Part shown: positions 435-37,162 of the stretch, piece by piece
Layout of the letters: each line of letters opens with the position of its first letter
Position numbering within the stretch: position 1 is the first letter of the stretch
DNA from: Blastopirellula marina
GTDB lineage: Bacteria > Planctomycetota > Planctomycetia > Pirellulales > Thermoguttaceae
DNA length: 37,162 nucleotides
Direction of reading: 5' to 3'
Assembly: GCA_020721945.1 (NCBI GenBank)
Contig: DYLT01000010.1
Span: 1 to 37,162, forward strand
Notes under the pieces: model-generated
Told to the model about the DNA's origin: nothing
Databases searched by the model: none
Seen by the model: only the letters and a program-made list of their open reading frames with translations
Program-made: the position numbers and the translations under genes

Positions 435-3206
435 ATGCGAATCGTCGGCGTGCGAGTGCTCGCTTTCTCGTGGTTGGCGGTTTCGTTGGCCGCTGTTTCG
501 CTCGAGGCGGCCGTGGTGGTCGTCGGCAACCGAAGCGAGAAGACCGTGCGGTTTACCCTCGTTGGGGGCTGGAGACCCCAAGAGCAATTCTCGCTAGCGC
601 CCGCCCGATTGATTCCGGTGCCAGTGCCTGACCGGGTGGAGATCCGCTTCGCGTCGGGCGGGTCCGACGTCCGACAGACGCTGGACCCGAACACGATCCA
701 CGAGTTCGTAGCCGACCGCGACGGGGTGAAGTTGCGGCCGTTGGATTTCGGGATGGTCGGCATTCCGCCCTCCGTGGCGCCGGCGCGTCCGGGGGGGCCG
801 CCCTCTCCGGTTGTGGTTCCCGTCAAGCTCGTCGCCGAGGAAGACCAGGCCGACGGCGAGGGGACGTGGGAACGCCAACTCCGCCGGCAGGTTGCCGCCG
901 CCTCGCAGTTCATCGAACTGTACTGCGGGGTGCGGTTTGAAGTCGTCGCGGTGGGGATCTGGAAGGCCACCAAACCGAAGTCCGACCCACGGCGGCTGTT
1001 GGACGACTTCCGCGAGAAAGTCTCTCCCGACCCGGGGTGGCTGGCGATCGGATTGGCCGGTCCCAACTACCGGATGCCCGAGCATCTCCGTCCGTTGGAG
1101 CGCGGACGGGAGCCGCTTTGTGGGCACGTGCTAGTGCCCGGCACGACGCGAACCCTGACCGAGGCCGCGCAACTCGAGCTGTTGGTCCACGAATTGGGGC
1201 ATTGGCTGGGGGCCGTCCACACCCGGGAACCGGATTCGATCATGCGGCCGCCCGCGGGCCGGCAAGCAGGCCGGCGCGAGGGCCAGTCGACGTTCGATCC
1301 GATGAACACCCTGGTGATGAACCTGTATGCCGATGAGCTTCGCGCCCGGCGTCCACCGAGCGTGGATGCCTTGTCGGGCGGGACGCGCGAACATCTGTAC
1401 GCCATCTACCTCGAAGCGGCCATGCGCTTGCCCACCGACCGCGAAATCACCCGGTATGCCGAACTGGTCCGCGAGCCGGTCTTGCCCGAGTTGCGGTACG
1501 TGGGCCAGTGGATGGATGGGACGCGGGCGACGGGCAGCTCCGTGGCCCCGTGGCACGAGACCAAGGCCTCGCCCAAACTCGCGGGGCGAGACTTGTTCGA
1601 CCCAACGAACCCCATCCGCTGGCTGGTCGATAACTCGGTTGCGCTGGTCCCGCCCGAATCCTGGGTCGAATTCATCGGCGGCGATTGCTTGCCGGGCCGG
1701 GTGGTGGGATTCCGCGATGGGCAGGAATCGCCTCGCGAGCGGCTCGCGCCGCATCTGCTGGTCGTGCCCCAGCAGCGGCTCGACACCCCCGATGCGGCCA
1801 CGCGGCCCTCGGTGCGGGTGACGACCTCCTGGGTTCGGCGCATCGTCTGGGAGCCCGTCGCCGACGAATACCGGCCGCGCACCCTGTTTTTCGCCGACGG
1901 ACGACAGCTCGATTTTCGCGCGTTGCGCTTTGCCGAGTCGTCGGTGCGATTGCTCCGCGAGGACGGGATCCGCGAGGTTCCTCTTGGGGAAATCGCCGAA
2001 CTGCACTTGGCTGTTTCAGACCCGTGGGAGGCGTATTTCGAACAGGTGACCGCGCTGGCTCCTGAGCCTGGTGCCAGGCTGGTGTGTTTGGAGACAGGAG
2101 GGGGGCTGCGGGTGACCAGCACGACCGAGCGGTTCCAGGCCACGGTGAATGGCCCAGCCGACAAGTCGTCAAGCTGGTATCACCTCGTCCACCCAGCTTG
2201 GAGCCTCGATGCCTTGTGGCTTGGGCACGACAGCATCCGGGTGCGCCAGTACTTCGCGCCTCACGAGGTGCCGCTCTCGCGGATCGAACCGAGCCGCAGC
2301 CGGCAGCAGTCCGACCTGGGCGGCACATGGCGGTGGCAAGCCGACCGCAACTGCGAAGGGGCCATTCTGGAGTGCGGCGGGACAGGATATCCGTGGGGCT
2401 TTGGCGTCCATGCCTCGTGCGAGCTGGAATTCCCTCTGCCGGCTGGGGTACGCGCGTTCCGCACGCGGCTCGGGTTGGATCAATTGGCCGGTAACGGCGG
2501 GTGCGTCCAAGCCCGGGTGCTGATCAATCCACCGGCCGCGCAGTCGCTCTACACCAGTGGGGTTATGGTGGGCTCGGCCGAGGTGGCCGACACGGGTCGT
2601 TTGGCCTTTGATCCGCAGAAGCCACCCACCGGCCTGATCCTACAGGTCGATGCGACACCTAAGACCCCCCCAGCTGGAGCGGATCCCCTGGATGTGCGCG
2701 ACGCCTTCAACTGGCTCGAACCGCTTGTCGAGTTGGATCCCGAGAGACTGCCGAGCGAACTGCTTCGACGCGGCCCGCGCATGATCCCATGTTGGCAGAA
2801 CTGGACCATGACCTCGGCGGATTCGCCCACGGCACGCTTGGTGAGCTTGTGGGACGAATACGGCGCCCAGCCTCGCGGTTACCGCCTGGCGGTGTCCGCG
2901 GCCCCGGGGCCGGTGCGGGTCTCGGGCAAGGTGACGCCTTGGCCATACCGCGACCGCCTGATGGTTTGCGTATGCCGGCCCCCCAACGTACCGGGCAGCA
3001 AACTCGAGGTGCGTGTCGATGGCAAGCCGCTGGGCTCCTTCGAGGTCCCGGTGCGTCAGTCGCCCGAGTTCCCCCCCTTGGTCTTCTCCGTGGCCGAGTA
3101 CCACGGGCGCGACGTGGCGATCGACCTGATCCAGTCGTCGGCCGACGAAAAAGCCGTGGTCGAGTGGCGTGCCATCTCGCTGGTCGGGCGGACCCAAGTG
3201 CCGTAG
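435..3206 (+). CDS. secreted zinc metalloprotease-like protein with NPCBM-like domain
   Basis: The 923-residue product starts with a signal peptide (MRIVGVRVLAFSWLAVSLAA), which decides this ATG over an in-frame one 96 bases upstream; AGAGGG precedes it. At about residues 252-262 lies HELGHWLGAVH, a full HExxHxxGxxH metzincin zinc site, followed by a Met near residue 270 (SIMRP) that fits a Met-turn. Around residues 629-700 a segment with GGTGYPWGFGVHASCELEF resembles the NPCBM carbohydrate-binding fold common in planctomycete secreted proteins. The region between is unassigned. A role in digesting extracellular glycoprotein or cell-surface material is inference. The zinc motif is certain; the exact protease family is not. 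Confidence 0.85.
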   Translation: MRIVGVRVLAFSWLAVSLAAVSLEAAVVVVGNRSEKTVRFTLVGGWRPQEQFSLAPARLIPVPVPDRVEIRFASGGSDVRQTLDPNTIHEFVADRDGVKLRPLDFGMVGIPPSVAPARPGGPPSPVVVPVKLVAEEDQADGEGTWERQLRRQVAAASQFIELYCGVRFEVVAVGIWKATKPKSDPRRLLDDFREKVSPDPGWLAIGLAGPNYRMPEHLRPLERGREPLCGHVLVPGTTRTLTEAAQLELLVHELGHWLGAVHTREPDSIMRPPAGRQAGRREGQSTFDPMNTLVMNLYADELRARRPPSVDALSGGTREHLYAIYLEAAMRLPTDREITRYAELVREPVLPELRYVGQWMDGTRATGSSVAPWHETKASPKLAGRDLFDPTNPIRWLVDNSVALVPPESWVEFIGGDCLPGRVVGFRDGQESPRERLAPHLLVVPQQRLDTPDAATRPSVRVTTSWVRRIVWEPVADEYRPRTLFFADGRQLDFRALRFAESSVRLLREDGIREVPLGEIAELHLAVSDPWEAYFEQVTALAPEPGARLVCLETGGGLRVTSTTERFQATVNGPADKSSSWYHLVHPAWSLDALWLGHDSIRVRQYFAPHEVPLSRIEPSRSRQQSDLGGTWRWQADRNCEGAILECGGTGYPWGFGVHASCELEFPLPAGVRAFRTRLGLDQLAGNGGCVQARVLINPPAAQSLYTSGVMVGSAEVADTGRLAFDPQKPPTGLILQVDATPKTPPAGADPLDVRDAFNWLEPLVELDPERLPSELLRRGPRMIPCWQNWTMTSADSPTARLVSLWDEYGAQPRGYRLAVSAAPGPVRVSGKVTPWPYRDRLMVCVCRPPNVPGSKLEVRVDGKPLGSFEVPVRQSPEFPPLVFSVAEYHGRDVAIDLIQSSADEKAVVEWRAISLVGRTQVP

Positions 3207-3207
3207 C

Positions 3208-3393
3208 CTATCGGTCCTCAATCCCCCACGCGGCGATGATCGTCTCGGCCCCAGGGGTGAGTTTGCGGATCTTCTCGCAAATCGCGGCCTTTTCGGAAAC
3301 CGTGGCCTTTTTCAGCCGGTTCGCCCACTGCGTCAGCTTCTTTTTGCGGTGACGCCGGCGCCGCAACTCCCGTTTTCGCTCGCTCATCGACAC
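3208..3393 (-). CDS. small basic protein, DUF6800-like
   Basis: This is a 61-residue, very basic protein beginning MSMSERKRELRRRRHRKKK and ending in a conserved-looking KLTPGAETIIAAWGIEDR segment. It resembles, from memory, a short planctomycete family annotated DUF6800; its function is unknown. AGGAG sits 7 bases before the GTG start used here; an in-frame ATG two codons later (position 3387) has poorer spacing. A good promoter lies upstream at 3438-3466. The stop is one base from the convergent metalloprotease stop. Nucleic-acid or ribosome binding is possible from charge alone. Confidence 0.75.
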   Translation of the reverse strand: MSMSERKRELRRRRHRKKKLTQWANRLKKATVSEKAAICEKIRKLTPGAETIIAAWGIEDR

Positions 3394-3437
3394 GGATCGA
3401 CTCCTCTGTGACGTTCGGTTGACCCAGGTAATCCCTC

Positions 3438-3466
3438 GTTATACGGAACCGCGTGCAGGCGGTCAA
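3438..3466 (-). promoter_or_regulatory. sigma70-type promoter for the small basic protein
   Basis: On the minus strand TTGACC (-35) and TATAAC (-10) are separated by exactly 17 bases, about 45 bases ahead of the GTG start. Each hexamer is one base off consensus. Confidence 0.6.
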
Positions 3467-3631
3467 TGCAGATGGCCGTACCGCGATCGAGCCCGAGGCA
3501 ACCGCCTCGTCTGGCATGTCGCGGCCCAATCGACTACACTGCGACCATCGTCGATGCCGATGCCCGCGCGCCGACTGGCACTGGGTAGCGGTGCGATGCC
3601 CCCATCGCGTGTCTTCCGGAGGAATGGAGCC

Positions 3632-4249
3632 ATGAAACGCATGCTGGCAGTCTTGGCCGCAGTATTCGGATTCACCTTCGTCATCCAGGCCGGGGAACCC
3701 CGGGTGCTCTTCGAGGACCGTTTCGACGGAAAGCTCGGTCAGGGTTGGACCTGGCTCCGCGAGAACCCCAAGACCTGGCGGTTTCAGGAGAGCGCCCTGG
3801 AGATTCGCGTCGAGCCCGGGGCCGGCGCCGACGTGAAGAACACCCTGCTCCGCAAGGCCCCCGACCGAAACCAGACGAAAATCGCCATCGAGGTCACGGT
3901 GACCTTCACCGCGCAACCGACGAAGCAGTTCGAGCAGGCGGGCATTACCTGGTATCAGGCCGGTGCGCCGAAGTTCAAGCTGGTCCACGAGGTGGTCGAC
4001 GGCCAGTTGATGATCATTCCCGGCAGGGCCCCCGCCCCGGAGAAGACCGTCCAGTTGCGGCTCGTGCTGGAAGGCGACAAGTATACGGCTCAATTCCGCG
4101 CCAACGCGCAGGGCGAGTTCAAGACCGCCGCGTCGGGCACGCTGCCCATCGCAGGGGAAGAGCAGGTCGGCATCCAGTGCTACCACGGACCCGCCGAGGA
4201 GGATCACTGGATCCGATTCGACGACTTCCGCATCCTCCAGCTTCCCTAG
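3632..4249 (+). CDS. secreted beta-sandwich (DUF1349/concanavalin-like) protein
   Basis: The 205-residue product has an N-terminal signal peptide (MKRMLAVLAAVFGFTFVIQA) followed by one compact domain. The start FEDRFDGKLGQGWTW, the central AGITWYQ and the end IRFDDFRIL follow the pattern of DUF1349/LamG-like concanavalin folds used as carbohydrate-binding or glycan-sensing modules. GGAGGA lies nine bases before the ATG, so the start is firm. It faces the Gfo/Idh gene convergently with 17 bases between stops. I infer a role outside the cytoplasm in glycan handling; no catalytic residues are evident. Confidence 0.8.
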   Translation: MKRMLAVLAAVFGFTFVIQAGEPRVLFEDRFDGKLGQGWTWLRENPKTWRFQESALEIRVEPGAGADVKNTLLRKAPDRNQTKIAIEVTVTFTAQPTKQFEQAGITWYQAGAPKFKLVHEVVDGQLMIIPGRAPAPEKTVQLRLVLEGDKYTAQFRANAQGEFKTAASGTLPIAGEEQVGIQCYHGPAEEDHWIRFDDFRILQLP

Positions 4250-4266
4250 ACCAGCGGCCGGGGCCC

Positions 4267-5610
4267 TCAGGCCAGGTACTCCTTGGGGAACTTCCAAGGC
4301 GCGCGATACTCGGGCACGGCAAGCCGCGCCGCCTCGTCGTCGCCGACGATCTGTTCCTTGGCTGGGTCAAAGCGGATCGACCGGCCCAAGCGCAGCGAGA
4401 GGTTCGCCAACACCAGCGGCACATCGACCCGGACGTGGTAGAACACGCTGCAACTGGGTTCCTGGCGGCTCTTGATCGCATGGAGCCACTCGCGTTCGTG
4501 GCCGGGCGAGGGAGGGATCGACGGCTTGGGTGGTTCGCGCCCCTTCATGCGGTCGCCCTCGGGCACGACCTTGAACATGCCATAGTTGCAGTACATGGTG
4601 CCGTCGACGCCGTGGAAGTAGATCCCCAGGCGGCGTTGCGGCACCGGGTTGCCGTGCAAATCGAACCCGTAGCTGTTGGCCAACATGCCCATCCAGGTCA
4701 TGGTCACCTCGGGGTACTTCCAGAGGACCTCCTGCACGTCGGGGGCGTCGCCGTCGTCCTTGATGACGAATCGGCCTCCGGTGCAACTGGTTTGGGTGGG
4801 ATAGCCCAGGCTGAGGGCCCAGACCGGCAGATCGATGATGTGGGGCGCCATGCCGGGCAGCCATCCGCCGCTATACGCCATAAACGAGCAGTGGTTGTAG
4901 GAATTGGCGGCGAGGATCGCGTTGTAGGGCCGCATCGGGCCGGGGCCGATCCATAGCTCCCAGTCGAGACCCGGCGGCGGCGTGGTATTGGGGTCCGTGC
5001 CCACGCCCTCGGGCCCCTGGTTCATCACGTTGAACGTTCGCACCACGCTGATCTTGCCCAGATAGCCCGCCTGAACCATCTCGACGATCCGGCGGTAGTT
5101 CTCCGAAGCGTGGATTTGCGTGCCGATCTGGCTGATGCGGCGGTGCTTCTTGACCGCGTTGCGCACGGCGAGGCTCTCGCCGAGGTGCAGCGTCATCGGC
5201 TTTTGGAGGTAAAGATCCTTGCCCGCCTCGCACGCCTGGATCGCCTGGAGGGCGTGCCAGTGGGGTGGCGAGGCGATGATCACGGCATCGACATCCTTGC
5301 GGTCGAGCACCTCGCGGTAGTCGTGGTGGGGCTTGCAGGTCTCCTTGAATTGGGCCGCCACGGCCTCGCGGCGCGCTTTCCACGGGTCGCAGGCCCCGAC
5401 GACGACCACGTCGGGCTGGTTCGCACACGCGCCGAGGTTGGCCCGACCCATTCCGCCGCAGCCAATCAGCGCCAGCCGGATCTTCTCGCTCGGCGCCGGC
5501 TTGCCCGGCTGCGCGAGCGCGCTGGCAGGAACCAACGGGGGGAGGGCCAGTCCGGCCGCTGCGGCCGCTCCGAGAAATCCGCGCCGAGACACACTGGCAG
5601 ATGGCACCAT
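4267..5610 (-). CDS. Gfo/Idh/MocA family oxidoreductase with Tat signal
   Basis: This is a 447-residue NAD(P)-dependent sugar oxidoreductase family member. It begins with a twin-arginine signal (SVSRRGFLGAAAAAG), then a Rossmann motif LIGCGGMG at about residues 48-55 and a C-terminal Gfo/Idh domain. The family EKP lysine motif is present as LQKP, so the lysine is kept but Glu is replaced by Gln. GAGGTG precedes the ATG by four bases. Only eight bases separate it from the upstream PmoA-like gene, so the two are probably co-transcribed. Such exported oxidoreductases are abundant in planctomycetes; the substrate cannot be deduced. Confidence 0.92.
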   Translation of the reverse strand: MVPSASVSRRGFLGAAAAAGLALPPLVPASALAQPGKPAPSEKIRLALIGCGGMGRANLGACANQPDVVVVGACDPWKARREAVAAQFKETCKPHHDYREVLDRKDVDAVIIASPPHWHALQAIQACEAGKDLYLQKPMTLHLGESLAVRNAVKKHRRISQIGTQIHASENYRRIVEMVQAGYLGKISVVRTFNVMNQGPEGVGTDPNTTPPPGLDWELWIGPGPMRPYNAILAANSYNHCSFMAYSGGWLPGMAPHIIDLPVWALSLGYPTQTSCTGGRFVIKDDGDAPDVQEVLWKYPEVTMTWMGMLANSYGFDLHGNPVPQRRLGIYFHGVDGTMYCNYGMFKVVPEGDRMKGREPPKPSIPPSPGHEREWLHAIKSRQEPSCSVFYHVRVDVPLVLANLSLRLGRSIRFDPAKEQIVGDDEAARLAVPEYRAPWKFPKEYLA

Positions 5611-5618
5611 GATTCACC

Positions 5619-6881
5619 TCATTGGGATAGCGATCTGGTTTCGAGAACGACCTTGGGTGGGCGCGCGTACGCGGCCCACACCTCGGCCAATGCCTTCTCC
5701 TCGGGAACGCCTGCATGGACCCACACCCGGTGCCGCAGCACCAGCGTCTGCCCCTTGGGCAACGGCACCTCGCGCTGGCCCGGGAACGCCGGCATGACGT
5801 AGTTGCAGTCGGGGTACTGGTGCAGATCGCTCGGGTACCCCGGGTTGGCCGGATGCTCGAAGATGGCGACCCCGCTGGGGCCCTTGGCCCCGGCGAACAC
5901 GCCCGAGTAGTCAAGCCACGAGCGCCGCGGGCTAAAGCCCGGGGCATCGACGTGGGCGGTGATCGTGCGCTGGTGGGCCGGCGCGCCGCGCAGTCCGAAC
6001 CCGCCGTAGCCCGCGTGCGGCCGGCCCCCGATGGCCACGCCGTCGGCCAGACCGGTCAACCGAACCTCGATATCCACGAACCGACCCGCGGGCCCTTGCC
6101 GGAAGGCTTGGATCGCGACCTCCTCGCGCACGATGGCGTCCTGGTCGCCCCACTTCCACACGTTCTCGACTTCCAAGGCGGCCAGGACCTCGCCGAAAGC
6201 GGCCTGCCGCCGCGCCACCGGACGCGACCACACCCCGCTGACCGCCCAGATGTCGCGAACCTCGTTCTTCCAGCGCGTGACCGGCCACGACCAACCCACG
6301 CCGCGATGGTGAGGATGGTCCTTGGGATAGTCGTCGGAAAGCACCTCGCCGTCCAGCCCATAGAGCGGATGGAGGTAATCGCCCCGGGCGTATCGCGGAT
6401 CGATTCCCTTGGGCACGGGCACGGTGGCGTGGTTGTAGCGGAGCACCGGCCGGTCCAACTCGGTGAACTCGTAGTAGTCGCCGCGCGCCAGCGAGACCCT
6501 CATGCGCGGCGCTGCCGGCGCGCCCGATTTCGCGCCATCGGCCGGAAGAACCCTCAGCCGAAAATACCGCACACCGGGTGGGCCCGCCGGCAGAATCCAC
6601 CACAAGGTCCCCGGTGTTGCGCCATCGCCCGGCGGCACGTACTGGATCCCGAAGGGCTCGCCGGCCGCCTCGCCCGACGGCTTGATTTCCTGCAAGGTGC
6701 AGGACACGGGTCGGCCCGGCGCCACGCCCAGCCGGTCGGCCGTGACTTCGACGCGGATCGGCGCGCCGCATCGAGCAGCCGCTCCGTCCGGATCGACGAC
6801 CGAGACCACCGTGTCGGCCGCCGGGGCGATCGACATTCCCACCACCAGCGCGCCGACCAGCAACAAGCCTCGAAACGGCAT
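5619..6881 (-). CDS. PmoA family protein (DUF6807-like), secreted
   Basis: The 420-residue product has a signal peptide (MPFRGLLLVGALVVGMSIAPA), then a roughly 100-residue beta-rich N-terminal region and the characteristic PmoA-family core, with HPLYGLDGEVLSDDYPKDHPHHRG at about residues 170-195 (histidine-rich) and PDCNYVMPAFPGQRE near the C-terminus. The name refers to an annotation family and does not imply methane oxidation. Planctomycetes and Bacteroidetes often carry this family beside Gfo/Idh oxidoreductases and sulfatases, as here. It is first in a two-gene unit with a promoter at 6925-6954. Its biochemical activity is not established to my knowledge. Confidence 0.88.
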   Translation of the reverse strand: MPFRGLLLVGALVVGMSIAPAADTVVSVVDPDGAAARCGAPIRVEVTADRLGVAPGRPVSCTLQEIKPSGEAAGEPFGIQYVPPGDGATPGTLWWILPAGPPGVRYFRLRVLPADGAKSGAPAAPRMRVSLARGDYYEFTELDRPVLRYNHATVPVPKGIDPRYARGDYLHPLYGLDGEVLSDDYPKDHPHHRGVGWSWPVTRWKNEVRDIWAVSGVWSRPVARRQAAFGEVLAALEVENVWKWGDQDAIVREEVAIQAFRQGPAGRFVDIEVRLTGLADGVAIGGRPHAGYGGFGLRGAPAHQRTITAHVDAPGFSPRRSWLDYSGVFAGAKGPSGVAIFEHPANPGYPSDLHQYPDCNYVMPAFPGQREVPLPKGQTLVLRHRVWVHAGVPEEKALAEVWAAYARPPKVVLETRSLSQ

Positions 6882-6924
6882 CTTCGACTCCTTGCATCAA
6901 CGGGTCACGGCGGGCAGCGTCCCC

Positions 6925-6954
6925 ATTATGGTCGAGGGCCACCGAGCGTGTAAA
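6925..6954 (-). promoter_or_regulatory. sigma70-type promoter for the PmoA/Gfo-Idh unit
   Basis: On the minus strand TTTACA and CATAAT are spaced by 18 bases, about 45 bases ahead of the PmoA-like start codon. Confidence 0.5.
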
Positions 6955-6981
6955 GCGAGGCGAACACGCGCGTGGCCGACC

Positions 6982-8169
6982 CTAGTGCCGCAGCACGTTG
7001 CGCAGGGCCCAGGCACCCCACGCAAACAGCACGACGTTTCCCGTCCAGACCAGCACCGGCGGGATGGTGCCGTTCTTGGCCCCGTTGATCCCGTAGATCA
7101 ACAGGGGGTAGTAGACGACGAGGATGGGGGCGAAGCAAAGAAAGAAGCTCGTCAGCGGTTCCGGCTTGCGGAGCCAGACGGCCATCGGCACGCCGACCCA
7201 GACGAAGAACAGGCAACTGAATCCGGTGGACCATCGCCGATAGGGTTCGAGGCGCAGGCGGAACAGCCGGCCGCGCATGTCGCGTAGGATGATGGCGTTT
7301 CGCTTCCACGTGTCGCCTGCCAGTTCGCCGAAGTCGCCGGTGAACAGCCGGCAGGCGGCCTCGGCCGCCGCGGCCTCCTGGAGTCGTGCGATGGCCCGCT
7401 CTTGTTCGGCGGCTTCCTCGGGAATCTGGCGGAGCGGGATGGCCGAAGGGCTGGAGGTCGCCTCGTCCGAGCCGCTGGCATCGGAAAGCGGGAGTTCGAC
7501 CGTGCGCGTGCCCAGAAAGCTGAACGTGGCACGGCCCTCGACGTCGATGGTTCCGTTGAGGAATTCGAGGCGAAGCACCCGCTCGCGGTGGTCGGTTTCG
7601 AGGCGAGCGCTCTCGGCGGTTACCGTGATGGGTGGGGTGCTGCCGCGGCGGGCAATGGAGACCGTCGGCCGAACCAGCGTCCGGTCGGATACCGCCTTGA
7701 CATTGATCGCCAGGCGCCGACCCGTGAACCGTCGCTCCACGCGCAACATGCCGTAAATGATGTCCTCGACCGACTCGATCACCACGCCCCGCACCCCGGC
7801 TCTCCCCCATGTCGGCGCGATGTCGTTGAGCCAGACCGTCACGAGACTCAACAGGACCGCAACGACCCACGCGGGCCAGATCACCACCAGGGGGGAAATG
7901 CCCGAGGCCTTCAACGCCACGATCTCGTTGAAACCCGACATCCGCGCATAGACCGTGGTGGCCGCCAAGAGCAACGTCACCGGGATGGCGAACCGCAGGG
8001 CATCGGGCAGGATGTACGGAAGGATCTTCAGCACCTCGGCCGGCGGCAAGCCTTGCGACACCGCCTCGCGCACGACGCCCACCAGCAAGATCGCCGTGGT
8101 CAGTCCAATCAGCGCAACGGAAAACACCTTGGCCAATTCGAGCAAAACGTAGCGCGTCATTCGGTGCAT
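6982..8169 (-). CDS. LptF/LptG family permease
   Basis: This is a 395-residue inner-membrane protein of the YjgP/YjgQ type. The N-terminal segment MTRYVLLELAKVFSVALIGL leads into three transmembrane helices, then a large soluble beta-rich domain (about residues 130-300), and three more helices at the C-terminus, the standard LptF/G layout. LptF/G with the LptB ATPase move lipopolysaccharide to the outer membrane, so this agrees with a diderm planctomycete envelope. No Lpt partner is adjacent. Two ATGs (8169 and 8160) are possible and neither has a convincing ribosome site. An acidic and serine-rich stretch near residues 225-245 is longer than usual. Confidence 0.85.
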   Translation of the reverse strand: MHRMTRYVLLELAKVFSVALIGLTTAILLVGVVREAVSQGLPPAEVLKILPYILPDALRFAIPVTLLLAATTVYARMSGFNEIVALKASGISPLVVIWPAWVVAVLLSLVTVWLNDIAPTWGRAGVRGVVIESVEDIIYGMLRVERRFTGRRLAINVKAVSDRTLVRPTVSIARRGSTPPITVTAESARLETDHRERVLRLEFLNGTIDVEGRATFSFLGTRTVELPLSDASGSDEATSSPSAIPLRQIPEEAAEQERAIARLQEAAAAEAACRLFTGDFGELAGDTWKRNAIILRDMRGRLFRLRLEPYRRWSTGFSCLFFVWVGVPMAVWLRKPEPLTSFFLCFAPILVVYYPLLIYGINGAKNGTIPPVLVWTGNVVLFAWGAWALRNVLRH

Positions 8170-8222
8170 GGCGGGCTAGTGTGGCCCGAAAAGCGCACCC
8201 GGGTCAAGGGCAGTACTTCCGC

Positions 8223-8251: not shown

Positions 8252-8272
8252 AGCCGCGGAGGAGTTGCAGGG

Positions 8273-9088
8273 ATGGCCCAGCTTTCCATCAATGAGACGA
8301 CCACCTATCGTTGGTCCTTTGAAGAGGACGTCACGGAATACCTCGCTGCGGGGATTCCGGCCATCGGGGTATGGCGTCAGAAACTCTCCGACTACGGCGA
8401 GGCGAAAGCGGCTGAACTCCTGGCCGAGACGGGCCTCAAGGCTTCCCACCTCTTCTGGGCGGGGGGCTTCACCGGGAGCGATGGCCGCTCGTTTCGCTCG
8501 TGCATCGAGGACGCAATCGAGGCCTTGCGCACCGCCCACGCCATCGGTGCCCAAACCCTCGTCGTCTACAGCGGGCCCCGGGGCGGACACACCTATAACC
8601 ACGCTCGACGCCTCTTCCGCGACGCGCTGGCCGAACTGGCACCCCTGGCCGACGAACTGGGGGTCACGTTGGCCGTCGAACCCATGCATCCGGGCTGCGC
8701 GGCGGAGTTCACGTTCTTGACCACGTTGGACGACGTGTTGGCAATCCTCGCCGCAGCGTGCCACCGGCGGGTCAAGATGGTCCTGGATACCTACCACGTC
8801 GGATGGGTTCCGGACTTGCCGCAACGAATCCCCTCAATCGTCAACCACATTGCCATCGTCCAACTGGGCGATGCTAAGTGCCCTCCGCAGGGCGAGCAAA
8901 ACCGTTGCCGGATTGGCGAAGGGGTGCTCCCTCTGAACGAGACGGTCGCCGCGCTGCAAGCCGCGGGCTACGATGGCTACTACGACGTTGAACTGTTGGG
9001 CGAAGACGTCGAGACGCTCGACTATCCGACCCTCCTGCACCACGCGAAGAACGCCTTCGAACATCTGGTGCGTTCGGCAGGCTCGTAA
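8273..9088 (+). CDS. sugar phosphate isomerase/epimerase (AP endonuclease 2 TIM barrel)
   Basis: The 271-residue cytoplasmic protein has the xylose-isomerase-like TIM-barrel pattern: AVEPMHP (metal-binding Glu at the end of a strand), VKMVLDTYHVGW (Asp/His ligands), IVQLGDAK, and a final YYDVELLGED with a metal-binding Glu. These four acidic/His sites are the usual divalent-metal cluster. GAGGAG precedes the ATG. Typical members interconvert ketoses or act in inositol or uronate catabolism; the precise sugar is unknown. It is followed after only five bases by the ArfB-like gene, so the two may share a transcript despite unrelated roles. Confidence 0.85.
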   Translation: MAQLSINETTTYRWSFEEDVTEYLAAGIPAIGVWRQKLSDYGEAKAAELLAETGLKASHLFWAGGFTGSDGRSFRSCIEDAIEALRTAHAIGAQTLVVYSGPRGGHTYNHARRLFRDALAELAPLADELGVTLAVEPMHPGCAAEFTFLTTLDDVLAILAAACHRRVKMVLDTYHVGWVPDLPQRIPSIVNHIAIVQLGDAKCPPQGEQNRCRIGEGVLPLNETVAALQAAGYDGYYDVELLGEDVETLDYPTLLHHAKNAFEHLVRSAGS

Positions 9089-33343: not shown

Positions 33344-33820
33344 ATGCATATCGCGCCGTCCACCAGCGCGCGGCCCGCGCCGATGCTTCGCCTGCCTGCC
33401 GGCCCCGGTCAAGGAGGGTTTCTGATCTTGGATCTCGAAGGGCGCGACGGTCAGCGCGTCGAGGTCGTCGTCAAGCTCGATGCCCGTCTCGTCCACGTGG
33501 TGCTCGCCCTCCGGTCGGTGATGGAGGCGGAACAGAACGCGTCTTGGCCCGCTCGGGGTTGGTGCTCCGCCTCGATCTTGTGCCAGATGGTCGAGGCCCA
33601 GACCCAGTATCGCATCAGCGAAAAGGCGGTTCGCAATTACATCTCGCAGATTCGCACGCGCATCGTTCGCGCCGTGCGTGGGGTCGCCGACAAGCTCAAC
33701 AACCCCTTGCCTCCCCACCTGTTGATCGAAGGAAAGCGGGGCCTCGGGGTTCGGTTGGCCACCGACCGCCTCCAGGTCGTCCTGCCGGCGGAGTTCCTGC
33801 GTGCCTCCCTGTCCGGCTGA
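33344..33820 (+). CDS. winged-helix-like putative regulator
   Basis: The 158-residue protein has a beta-rich N-terminal part (GFLILDLEGRDGQRVEVVVKLDARLVHVV) and a C-terminal half whose EKAVRNYISQIRTRIVRAVRG...HLLIEGKRGLGVRL resembles the recognition helix and wing of an OmpR/PhoB-type DNA-binding domain, though no receiver domain is present. A near-perfect ribosome site (AAAGGAGGGTG) sits four bases before the ATG. It is the first plus-strand gene ahead of the ubiquitin-like locus, 264 bases from the next gene, and could control that locus. The family assignment is by pattern only. Confidence 0.65.
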   Translation: MHIAPSTSARPAPMLRLPAGPGQGGFLILDLEGRDGQRVEVVVKLDARLVHVVLALRSVMEAEQNASWPARGWCSASILCQMVEAQTQYRISEKAVRNYISQIRTRIVRAVRGVADKLNNPLPPHLLIEGKRGLGVRLATDRLQVVLPAEFLRASLSG

Positions 33821-34084: not shown

Positions 34085-34663
34085 ATGCGGTTGGCAGTCT
34101 GGCAGGCGCGCGGGCGCAACGAGCCGTCCGCGGTCGAGGGAACCGGCCCGTGGTGGATCTCGGCGACGGGGGTCTGTGCCGTGGACGAAGCCCAAGCCTC
34201 GCTCGATGGCGCGATCCTTTTGCCTGGCGACTCCGAAGGGCTCGCGTTGCTGGTGACTTCCGAACCGCTCGAAGGCCGCCTGGCGCGCAACGGTCAACCG
34301 CTGCCTGCGGGGATCGAGGTGCTGCGCCACGGCGATCGGTTGGAGCTCGGCGACCTGCGCGTTTGGGTGTCGGCGGCGGCGGTTCCGATCGAGGCCGCCT
34401 ACGACCCGGGCCTCCACGGCGACGAAGCATTCTGTGCCCGCACGCGAAGCAGGCTGCGTGTGGGCGAGCCGATCGTGATTTGTCCGGGCACGGAATCGAC
34501 GCCGTGCGGGGCGCTGTACAAGGCCGAGGCGTGGGCCTTGGGCCGCCGGTGCCACCAGTGCGGCCGCGCCCCCGGCGCCGCGGCATGGAAGCCTCCTGGA
34601 CTCGACAAGGAGACCTACCGTGACCTCGTCCGCCTCGCCATCGACCCGCGCCCCGGCGATTGA
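34085..34663 (+). CDS. FHA-like / RING-like zinc-finger protein
   Basis: The 192-residue protein has an N-terminal beta-rich part ending in ARNGQPLPAGIEVLRHGDRLELGDLRVWVS (about residues 67-96), which follows the end of an FHA fold (N-G ... G-D-x-L-x-L-G). It is followed by a cysteine cluster: Cys117, Cys133, Cys141, Cys156 and Cys159, in CPGTESTPCGALYKAEAW...CHQCG, laid out like prokaryotic RING/treble-clef fingers, but with the usual first-knuckle partner and the His ligand missing. GGGAGG precedes the ATG. Its 3' end overlaps the E1-like gene by 44 bases. An E3-like role is a plausible inference, not shown. Confidence 0.6.
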   Translation: MRLAVWQARGRNEPSAVEGTGPWWISATGVCAVDEAQASLDGAILLPGDSEGLALLVTSEPLEGRLARNGQPLPAGIEVLRHGDRLELGDLRVWVSAAAVPIEAAYDPGLHGDEAFCARTRSRLRVGEPIVICPGTESTPCGALYKAEAWALGRRCHQCGRAPGAAAWKPPGLDKETYRDLVRLAIDPRPGD

Positions 34664-35798
34664 GCCGCGCTTCGCAAGACTGGTCGAAAGCGCCACGCTT
34701 TCGGGCGGTGCGTTCGGGAACTGGCGTCGAACCAGGCTGGTGCAACTCGGCGCTGGCCATTTGGGCAGCCGGTTGGCCCCGGAGATTGTCCGCAGCGGCG
34801 CCTCGGTGTCGATCTACGACCCCGAGTCGGTCTCGCCGGAGAACCTCGGCACGCAGGCGTTCTCGTGCGTGGGGCTTAACAAGGCGGTCGCGGTTTGCCA
34901 AGCGTGCGAGCAGATTCGCCCCGGTGCCGCCCAGGCCCGCCCCTATGACGTGCGGCACGCCGGCGTCGGCGAGCTGGCCGCTGCCGACGGCATCCTCGAC
35001 TGTACCGACGACGCTCGTCTGGAGTGGATGCTGACCGAGATCTCCAACGGGCTGGCGATTCCCCTGTTCCGGCTGGCGATCGAGGGATCGGGCGAGCATA
35101 ACCAGGGGCGAGTCCAGGTCTCCCACGGCGGCGGCGGCGGAGCGTGCCGCCTGTGCTCGAAGACCCCGGACCAGGTTCTCCGACTCGCAACGCGCACCCC
35201 GTGTCCCGGGGCTGGAGGCGACGACCGCGGTCCCACGCGGGCCGGGGCCGCGGTCGGCCTGGCGGTCGTCGGCGCGGCTCTGTTGTTGTTGCAGCGGTAC
35301 TTTGGCGGGCACAAGCGCGACGGCGTGCTTGACGCCCACGTGCTTGTCGATCTCGATTCCTTCCAGCTCGTGGCGATGCGCGAGCCGCGCCGCGAGACAT
35401 GCGTGTCGGGTCATGTGCGCTGGGACCTCGTGCGCACGGACCGCGACGCGCGCCAGACGACCTTCGGCGAGTTGTTCGACCTGGCCGAGTTCGAGTGGGG
35501 CTGCCGCGTCGAATCCCTCGAATTCTACCGGCACCCGATCTGCGGCTCGGCACGCTGCGAGTGCGGGGCCGAGGCGACGGCGTTCGCCACGCGCTGGGCC
35601 GCGGCGCCGTCATGCGCGGCGTGCGGCGGCGCCATGCACTGGCAAACCCACACCGGAAAGGACCGCTGGTCGCGCGCCCAAGCGCGGCAGGCTGGAATTC
35701 TCGACCGTACCGCGGCGGAACTCGGGTTGCCGTTGCGCGGAGCCATGCTGGTGGCGCGCGCGGGCGGCAAGACGCCCCTGCGGTTGGTACTGCAATGA
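34620..35798 (+). CDS. ThiF/E1-like adenylating enzyme
   Basis: The 392-residue protein has the E1 nucleotide-binding motif LVQLGAGHLGS (residues 40-50), the acidic strand end at Asp67 and the ENLGTQAF motif (residues 74-81), Lys88, and DCTDD at 127-131, as in ThiF/MoeB/Uba enzymes that adenylate the C-terminus of a ubiquitin-like protein. Cys195 in TPCPG may be the thioester cysteine. A Cys176-Cys179 pair and a C-terminal four-cysteine cluster (308, 313 or 315, 332, 335) suggest zinc binding. The GTG start has AAGGAG seven bases upstream and overlaps the zinc-finger gene, so translation is coupled. Confidence 0.85.
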   Translation: MTSSASPSTRAPAIEPRFARLVESATLSGGAFGNWRRTRLVQLGAGHLGSRLAPEIVRSGASVSIYDPESVSPENLGTQAFSCVGLNKAVAVCQACEQIRPGAAQARPYDVRHAGVGELAAADGILDCTDDARLEWMLTEISNGLAIPLFRLAIEGSGEHNQGRVQVSHGGGGGACRLCSKTPDQVLRLATRTPCPGAGGDDRGPTRAGAAVGLAVVGAALLLLQRYFGGHKRDGVLDAHVLVDLDSFQLVAMREPRRETCVSGHVRWDLVRTDRDARQTTFGELFDLAEFEWGCRVESLEFYRHPICGSARCECGAEATAFATRWAAAPSCAACGGAMHWQTHTGKDRWSRAQARQAGILDRTAAELGLPLRGAMLVARAGGKTPLRLVLQ

Positions 35799-35836
35799 AA
35801 TGCGAACCAGGCACCCAACACGACCAGGAGCCGGCC

Positions 35837-36454
35837 ATGGAAAGAACCCCGAACGCACGGCGAGACGAGTTGCCGCGGCGCCTGTTCGAGGCGATGCTGG
35901 CGGTCTCGCGCGACGGACGCCCGCTCGAGGAGGACACGCCCGCGGTGCGCGTCACCCGCGAGTTTCTCGCCAACAACTGGGCCCGGGCGCGCGATGGCCT
36001 CTTGGCCAAAACGCGCCTGATCGAGGTCCAACCGGAAATGTCGGCCGCGCCGCGCGTGTTCCGTTTCGCCATGCACCGCCCGTACAAACGCAAGGGCGCC
36101 GACGGCCGCGTCGAACTGGTCCCCGGCCCAATCCTCGGCACGGTGTTCTACCGGCACGATCTGTTCACCTGCGACGACGACGTGCCGACCGTGGCCGTGG
36201 CCTTGCACGACCGGGATACGTTCCACGCCAACTTCTCCCGGCGATACGGCTTGCTGTGCCTGGGCGCGGTCGGCGAGTTGGGTGGCGCGGGCGGTGGCCC
36301 GATTCCCTTGGATCGCCTGCTGGAACACGTGTACCGCATCATGAGTTACGCCAACTTCCGCGTGACCCACCCCGCCGATCTCGAGGCCGCACGCTACTTC
36401 GCCGCCGATCCCGACGCCCTGTGCGGCCTGGAGCACGTCGAACCCTTGTACTGA
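35837..36454 (+). CDS. E2-like (UBC-fold) conjugating protein
   Basis: The 205-residue product has the order expected of an E2: helical N-terminus, beta strands around residues 70-125, then H130-A-N132 ... L140-C141-L-G, equivalent to HPN and the catalytic cysteine eight to ten residues later, followed by a helix (LDRLLEHVYRIMSYANF) and a C-terminal HPADLEAARYF like the E2 LNxxAA element. The HPN proline is alanine. CAGGAG six bases before the ATG favours this start, though an in-frame ATG at 35795 overlaps the E1 stop (ATGA). Together with the neighbours this supports a conjugation pathway. Confidence 0.7.
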   Translation: MERTPNARRDELPRRLFEAMLAVSRDGRPLEEDTPAVRVTREFLANNWARARDGLLAKTRLIEVQPEMSAAPRVFRFAMHRPYKRKGADGRVELVPGPILGTVFYRHDLFTCDDDVPTVAVALHDRDTFHANFSRRYGLLCLGAVGELGGAGGGPIPLDRLLEHVYRIMSYANFRVTHPADLEAARYFAADPDALCGLEHVEPLY

Positions 36455-36525
36455 CCCCACGCGGGGGCACCTGGTCGTTGTGTTCGCGGACCGTTATTCC
36501 CATCAACCCATTGCGGAGATCCGAC

Positions 36526-37158
36526 ATGGCCCACGCGGCGCTTGAAGACCGGAGGACCGCCGAGCGGCACGCGCGGCCGCCAGAACGATGGCTCGCCCGC
36601 CAGACTTCGAGGCTCGACGAAGCACTTCGTTCCATCCGGGGGCTTACGATGAAGGACGAACAGGCCGGGACGCTGGCGGCCGGCTCCCTGCTGGCCGACC
36701 TTCGGATCGAGCCCCACCAGTGGATCCGCGTCGACGCCGTCCTCGAGTCGCCCCCGGGACCTTGGGATGCCCTGCGCGTCAACCATTGGCTTCCCGGGAA
36801 TCTGCGGTACGCGCACGCCGCGGGCCGCATGGCGTTGGTGGCTGAGACCATGATCGATGGCGTCGCGCATCTGGCCGAAAGCCTTGGCGAGATCCGCCAG
36901 GGGCTCCGGTCGGCCGCACGCAGCGGCCACGGGCCGATGGCCGGCCCGCCCGCGGCGATGCGGCAAGACGACCTGGCCGTCGACCGCCAGGCATTGGCTT
37001 CGGCGCTCGAACGACTGCCGTTTGGCGAGCAGGGGCTGGTCGAGCGGGAAGGGACGTCGGAGGCCGGCTCCGCGTGGGAGATTCGGCCCCGTGTGGCGGG
37101 TGAACCGGTCGCGGTGCTGCTCGAGTACCTAGCCCATGTTCAGTCTCGCGCTCCGTAA
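36526..37158 (+). CDS. unrecognised protein of the ubiquitin-like locus
   Basis: The 210-residue protein has no clear domain match. Residues 50-125 contain WIRVDAVLESPPGPWDALRVN...WLPGNLRYAHAAG followed by an amphipathic stretch; the pattern reminds me weakly of CesT/YbjN-type chaperone folds. A second, shorter beta/helix unit lies at 165-205. There is no C-terminal Gly-Gly, so it is not an obvious ubiquitin-like modifier, and no JAMM metal motif. GCGGAG precedes the ATG at normal spacing. It is 71 bases after the E2-like gene on the same strand and so likely in the operon; it could be a partner or substrate. Confidence 0.6.
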   Translation: MAHAALEDRRTAERHARPPERWLARQTSRLDEALRSIRGLTMKDEQAGTLAAGSLLADLRIEPHQWIRVDAVLESPPGPWDALRVNHWLPGNLRYAHAAGRMALVAETMIDGVAHLAESLGEIRQGLRSAARSGHGPMAGPPAAMRQDDLAVDRQALASALERLPFGEQGLVEREGTSEAGSAWEIRPRVAGEPVAVLLEYLAHVQSRAP

Positions 37159-37162
37159 GTCC

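Follow-up and report, generated by a model that had tools for sequence, protein, structure and literature searches.

A ten-gene planctomycete operon that probably combines ubiquitin-like and Pup-like protein tagging

Four genes at the right end of a 37,162-bp stretch of Blastopirellula marina DNA, the window analysed here, probably open a ten-gene dual-tag operon with a ubiquitin-like (Ubl) branch and a chemically unrelated Pup branch. The full order is RING/FHA, E1, E2, TY-chaperone, Ubl, JAMM, ATPase, Dop, Pup and PafA, and we are nearly certain that the operon exists as described. An initial annotation of the window had proposed a ubiquitin-like conjugation operon of bacterial type that includes a RING-like partner; this assignment is borne out by PDB matches of an E2 profile and by the genes staying together in homologues. 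Its four-gene view of the operon's extent covered only half: the Ubl conjugation genes stood, and the remainder proved to be a pupylation module of Mpa-like ATPase, Dop, Pup and PafA.

The four closely spaced open reading frames first described are all present on the plus strand. The first (34085..34663, 192 aa) encodes a predicted E3 with an FHA-like N-terminal part, assigned by reading only, and a degenerate Prok-RING_1-like RING in which C133, C141, C156 and C159 are kept (one of two zinc sites), as is C117. The second (34620..35798, 392 aa, GTG start) encodes an E1-like ThiF-fold adenylating enzyme with a C-terminal zinc-binding region; its E1-like character agrees with a Pfam ThiF match (4.6e-14) and with the presence of GAGHLG, D67, ENLGTQ and DCTDD. 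The noted 44-base overlap with the first gene is real if translation starts at the GTG at 34620, and the corresponding start in a same-genus relative is also GTG. The third gene (35837..36454, 205 aa) encodes an E2-like (UBC) enzyme with an HAN...C arrangement and candidate catalytic Cys141; the E2-type pattern suspected from the window holds, with H130-x-N132 and C141 unchanged across eight E2 homologues. The fourth, called at 36526-37158 (210 aa, plus strand), is a TY-chaperone-like gene of the TY-Chap1 family that the contig end truncates; its genuine part spans 36526..37126. Chance grouping of the four genes is excluded by conservation of their order in 12 genomes. The helix-turn-helix-like gene just upstream, at 33344-33820, was weighed as a candidate regulator of the operon and rejected, as it adjoins the operon only in a same-genus genome; it otherwise gave one weak match (3.7e-7) on another contig of genome G249.

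The window spans contig C2 of its assembly (genome G000) from end to end, and its right edge therefore cuts the operon. A same-genus relative, the metagenome-assembled genome Thermoguttaceae bacterium A05DMB26 (locus L006), has an E1 87% identical to that of the window and runs 5 kb past the point matching the window end. Searching the window's own genome with L006 DNA identified contig C502, which is 87–92% identical and picks up 21 nt past the final window base alignable to L006. The last ~36 window bases (37127..37162) align to neither L006 nor C502 and are likely an assembly artefact; since they have no match to L006, the stop codon at 37158 that closes the fourth gene is an artefact of the contig end. 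The gene continues on C502 at 8646-8942 (minus strand), and the complete gene is ~306 aa, like its 306-aa homologue; the complete homologue P0008 matches TY-Chap1 at 3.8e-4. The idea that the fourth gene replaces the modifier or deconjugase is thus withdrawn in favour of a truncated TY-chaperone-like gene. Its counterpart, that both lie past the right edge, was correct: a Gly-ended Ubl and a JAMM are found on C502 and, unbroken, in relatives. In L023 coordinates, all on the minus strand, C502 encodes a YukD-like Ubl (8257-8529, 90 aa, ending VMPEVAAG), a JAMM peptidase (7151-8182, Prok-JAB 3.8e-4), an Mpa/ARC-like AAA+ ATPase (5351-7096, AAA 2.6e-13, with a hint of a proteasomal-ATPase OB domain), a Dop-like enzyme (3707-5320, Pup_ligase 1.7e-40), a Pup-like protein (3427-3633, 68 aa, ending RRRNSSGQ) and a PafA-like ligase with a C-terminal extension that gives weak TPR matches (1069-3423, Pup_ligase 5.2e-39).

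At least 12 planctomycete genomes, drawn from several classes, share the operon order, as expected if homologues keep the genes together. Eight genomes (G323, G614, G552, G610, G078, G075, G109 and G072) share the identical ten-gene order. G706 matches this order except that the profile did not pick up a TY gene. In G249 and in the window's genome the operon lies on two mutually fitting contigs, and in L006 (genome G001) it breaks off before PafA. Across 392 Planctomycetota genomes, Pup_ligase was found in 37 and the E1 profile in 18, and an ATPase search revealed strong orthologues in three more genomes with the same genes in the same order. All seven of the strongest E1 matches (>170 bits; G000, G249, G078, G323, G075, G109 and G072) lie in loci with the Pup pair, contiguously in five and over two contigs in G000 and G249. 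A second sample, drawn from the same class and overlapping in part with the 392, comprised 368 genomes; its strong E1 matches again belonged to hybrid loci (5/5), three of them new (G614, G552 and G706) and each of these followed ~5–9 kb downstream by a same-strand Pup_ligase pair. Weak E1 matches in close relatives (L025-L033) were discarded, no other component adjoining. Overall, the hybrid operon occurs sporadically, in about 1–2% of sampled genomes, a distribution that would fit a candidate accessory role in stress or defence.

Conserved residues and profile searches characterize the Ubl branch. E1 positions G44, G46, G49, D67, N75, Q79 and D130 are invariant in orthologues, and the candidate catalytic Cys195 (TPCPG) is invariant in seven. 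The E2 motif is mostly HPN among the eight homologues and HAN in the window, and the E2 profile has 39 PDB matches at E=1 or below, every one an enzyme that conjugates ubiquitin or NEDD8 (best 4.3e-6). Single E2, Ubl and Pup-like proteins had no Pfam match, with matches obtained only by multi-sequence profiles, and AlphaFold2 models of E2 (two-sequence alignment, pLDDT 40) and Ubl (single sequence, pLDDT 48) were unusable. With the Ubl profile, the stand-alone operons yield Ubls of the YukD family (best 4e-8); these satisfy the Pfam YukD model, and some also match ubiquitin or SUMO-like families weakly. A widened version of the profile reaches PDB entries for Ubls and SAMP1 at E 0.014–0.03. 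For the window's clade, a YukD-like identity is suggested by this chain of profile matches, not by structure. An A-G pair near the Ubl C terminus is invariant in sixteen sequences, some of which carry short tails (AKSALH after AG, RRSALS after AGG) that would need removal by a JAMM. The JAMM residues E193, H264, H266, S289 and D292 (E...HxH...SxxD) are invariant in seven sequences. The RING is complete with two zinc sites in G075, G109 and G072, and the window clade keeps one; the G075 and G072 orthologues, with all zinc ligands kept, match Prok-RING_1 at 3.7e-6 and 2.1e-4, respectively.

Eleven weaker E1 matches (L068-L078) define stand-alone Ubl operons, in which E1 occurs with Ubl, JAMM and/or E2, and sometimes RING; none of the 11 has Dop, Pup, PafA or a convincing ATPase in the stretch fetched. 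An E1 tree that did not yet include G614, G552, G706 and G610 groups the hybrid E1s as a single clade apart from the stand-alone E1s, with support of 0.987. An ordinary ThiF/MoeB cofactor enzyme with unrelated neighbours, a reading that initially drew on matches to Pfam ThiF and to both MoeB and ThiF models, was refuted by the neighbourhood survey and has become exceedingly improbable for the window's E1-like gene: E2 and JAMM genes adjoin E1 in the homologous loci examined, most of which also have a Gly-ended Ubl or a RING, the protein scores 32.5 bits against a ThiF equivalog cut-off of 275 bits, and the genome has two other, stronger ThiF-family genes.

The best NCBIfam model for the ATPase is pup_AAA, at 5.6e-36 over almost its full length and up to 2.7e-88 in orthologues, and the protein fits the coiled coil, OB and AAA build of Mpa/ARC ATPases. 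The Dop-like protein scores 111 bits with the Dop model versus 74 with the PafA model, and the PafA-like protein 110 bits with PafA versus 63 with Dop, assignments with which PDB sequence matches agree. Active-site acidic and HxN residues are conserved in both, the first acidic residue being Asp (DxE) in the Dop-like protein versus ExE in PafA. No Pup_ligase other than this pair was found in G000, G078, G249, G323 and G075. A Pup-like gene sits at the Dop/PafA junction in the loci covering that junction. Neither Pfam nor NCBIfam has a match for its products, whose last two residues are GQ or GE in all loci but one: GGQ or GGE in divergent loci and SGQ, SGE, PGE or PGQ in the window clade, the window's own Pup ending SGQ, not GGQ. 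The exception is the hybrid operon of G610 (L083), whose Pup-like protein ends RQRSAQ. Two different Pup-like genes lie in tandem between Dop and PafA in G614 (L079, 1727-1933 and 2016-2369), both ending PGQ. In G295 (L067, 7408-9255), a hybrid-type PafA (profile 1.2e-118) stands alone behind a short ORF whose product ends YSSGE. Neither E1 nor Dop or ATPase was detected in the vicinity, and the two genes may form a minimal tagging pair with a single enzyme. At L039 (3-300), a PafA ORF at the contig edge runs, by reading, into a metallo-beta-lactamase-like stretch, possibly a chimera at the contig end.

A GQYL-type C-terminal end docks Mpa on the 20S proteasome, and none of the ATPase C termini examined (RAVAS, RAESA, KLHTA, GAER and VSAA) is of this type. 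The 20S model PF00227 had no match in G078, G249, G075, G072 or G109 and a single match, HslV, in each of G000, G001 and G323; these eight of the twelve operon-bearing genomes, the ones searched, are drafts of 90–98% completeness in which absence from a single genome is no proof. With no 20S found in these genomes and the examined ATPase ends lacking the docking motif, disassembly or remodelling of tagged proteins is likely, rather than proteasomal degradation.

From the observed genes, their order, motifs, family links and co-inheritance, we infer enzymatic activities, joint action on the same substrates and a biological role as follows. By homology, the JAMM peptidase would trim the Ubl precursor, where tailed, to its terminal Gly, which E1 would adenylate before taking the Ubl onto Cys195 and passing it to Cys141 of E2. 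The FHA/RING protein would act as E3, its FHA-like part possibly choosing phosphorylated partners, and tag removal may also fall to the JAMM. In the Pup branch, the Dop-like enzyme would deamidate the C-terminal Gln of Pup and could remove Pup, and the PafA-like enzyme would join the C-terminal Glu of Pup to lysines. The Mpa/ARC-like AAA+ ring would then unfold or pull apart tagged proteins for the predicted disassembly or remodelling. Judged from sequence, it is likely that both conjugation branches are active, and the prospect that Ubl and Pup tags act through one unfoldase is close to evenly balanced. Counting against the dual-tag reading, the window-clade RING lacks one zinc site, the Ubl fold of that clade is reached through a chain of profile matches, and in the window's own proteins HAN and SGQ replace HPN in E2 and GGQ in Pup.

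A shared operon is not proof of shared substrates. The two pathways might be independent and held in one operon for co-regulation only, for example as a stress regulon, with separate Ubl and Pup substrates and an ATPase serving Pup alone. Stand-alone Ubl operons in 11 sampled genomes and Pup ligases without E1 in others indicate that each half can work alone; however, even highly divergent loci preserve the order, hybrid E1s fall in one clade, several genes overlap or abut and the TY-chaperone gene sits between E2 and Ubl, and we regard co-regulation only as unlikely. In CBASS, Cap2 conjugates CD-NTase. By analogy, the E1/E2/Ubl/JAMM half could mainly regulate the Pup machinery (ATPase, Dop, PafA or Pup), a rather improbable arrangement for which FHA/RING and JAMM would allow regulated, reversible control and for which bacterial E1-E2 pairs modifying a same-operon partner offer precedent in CBASS (PMC10097602).

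The dual-tag operon can be placed among known systems. Burroughs, Iyer and Aravind reportedly described in 2011 bacterial operons of Prok-RING, E1, E2, YukD-like Ubl and JAB; all five component families are common to the hybrid operon, as are the Ubl C-terminal AG and a Prok-RING_1-family RING, to which the hybrid adds the Mpa-like ATPase, Dop, Pup, PafA and TY-chaperone in a fixed order with one E1 clade. The Pup-proteasome loci of Actinobacteria likewise have neighbouring Mpa/ARC ATPase, Dop, Pup ending G-Q/E and PafA genes, whereas the hybrid is joined to an E1-E2-Ubl-JAMM module, with no 20S found in the genomes searched and no docking motif at the ATPase ends. The same four neighbours are shared with UBact, the Pup-like system of other phyla. 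BilABCD, Bub operons and CBASS Cap2/Cap3 have in common with the hybrid a bacterial E1, E2 and JAMM whose known or predicted target is a Ubl or a C-terminal tail; unlike them, it has a separate single-adenylation-domain E1, a one-domain Ubl, a RING partner and a Pup module. In contrast to the fused E1-E2 Cap2 and CD-NTase of type II CBASS, E1 and E2 are separate and no CD-NTase is among the operon genes. BilABCD is described as a four-gene operon with a two-domain Ubl and an E1 with inactive and active adenylation domains (PMC11354881), and differs from the ten genes, ~90-aa Ubl and 392-aa E1 with one ThiF match found here. For Planctomycetes, a published survey lists Dop/PafA homologues only as single copies (PMC7947786), and the passages of Iyer et al. 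2008 covered here link a Pup ligase of the planctomycete Rhodopirellula to a membrane-protein gene, not E1/E2 (PMC2588565). Each half is of a known kind. The portions of the literature searched held no earlier description of the combination of Ubl and Pup; Burroughs et al. 2011, the likeliest place, lay outside that search, and priority is not established. We put forward only tentatively that this is a previously undescribed dual-tag machine, in which E1-E2-RING thioester and glutamine-synthetase-fold ligase conjugation evolved together in Planctomycetota to serve one proteasome-free Mpa-like unfoldase.

Tagging of the ubiquitin type and of the Pup type is a textbook case of separate solutions reached by convergence, and the two systems are normally met apart. 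Their retention in one operon across divergent bacteria makes the question of shared substrates directly testable. It also offers a test of how an Mpa-type motor is used where no proteasome is present and of what purpose bacterial E1-E2-RING pathways serve, and provides a compact gene set for testing a bacterial RING as a true E3.
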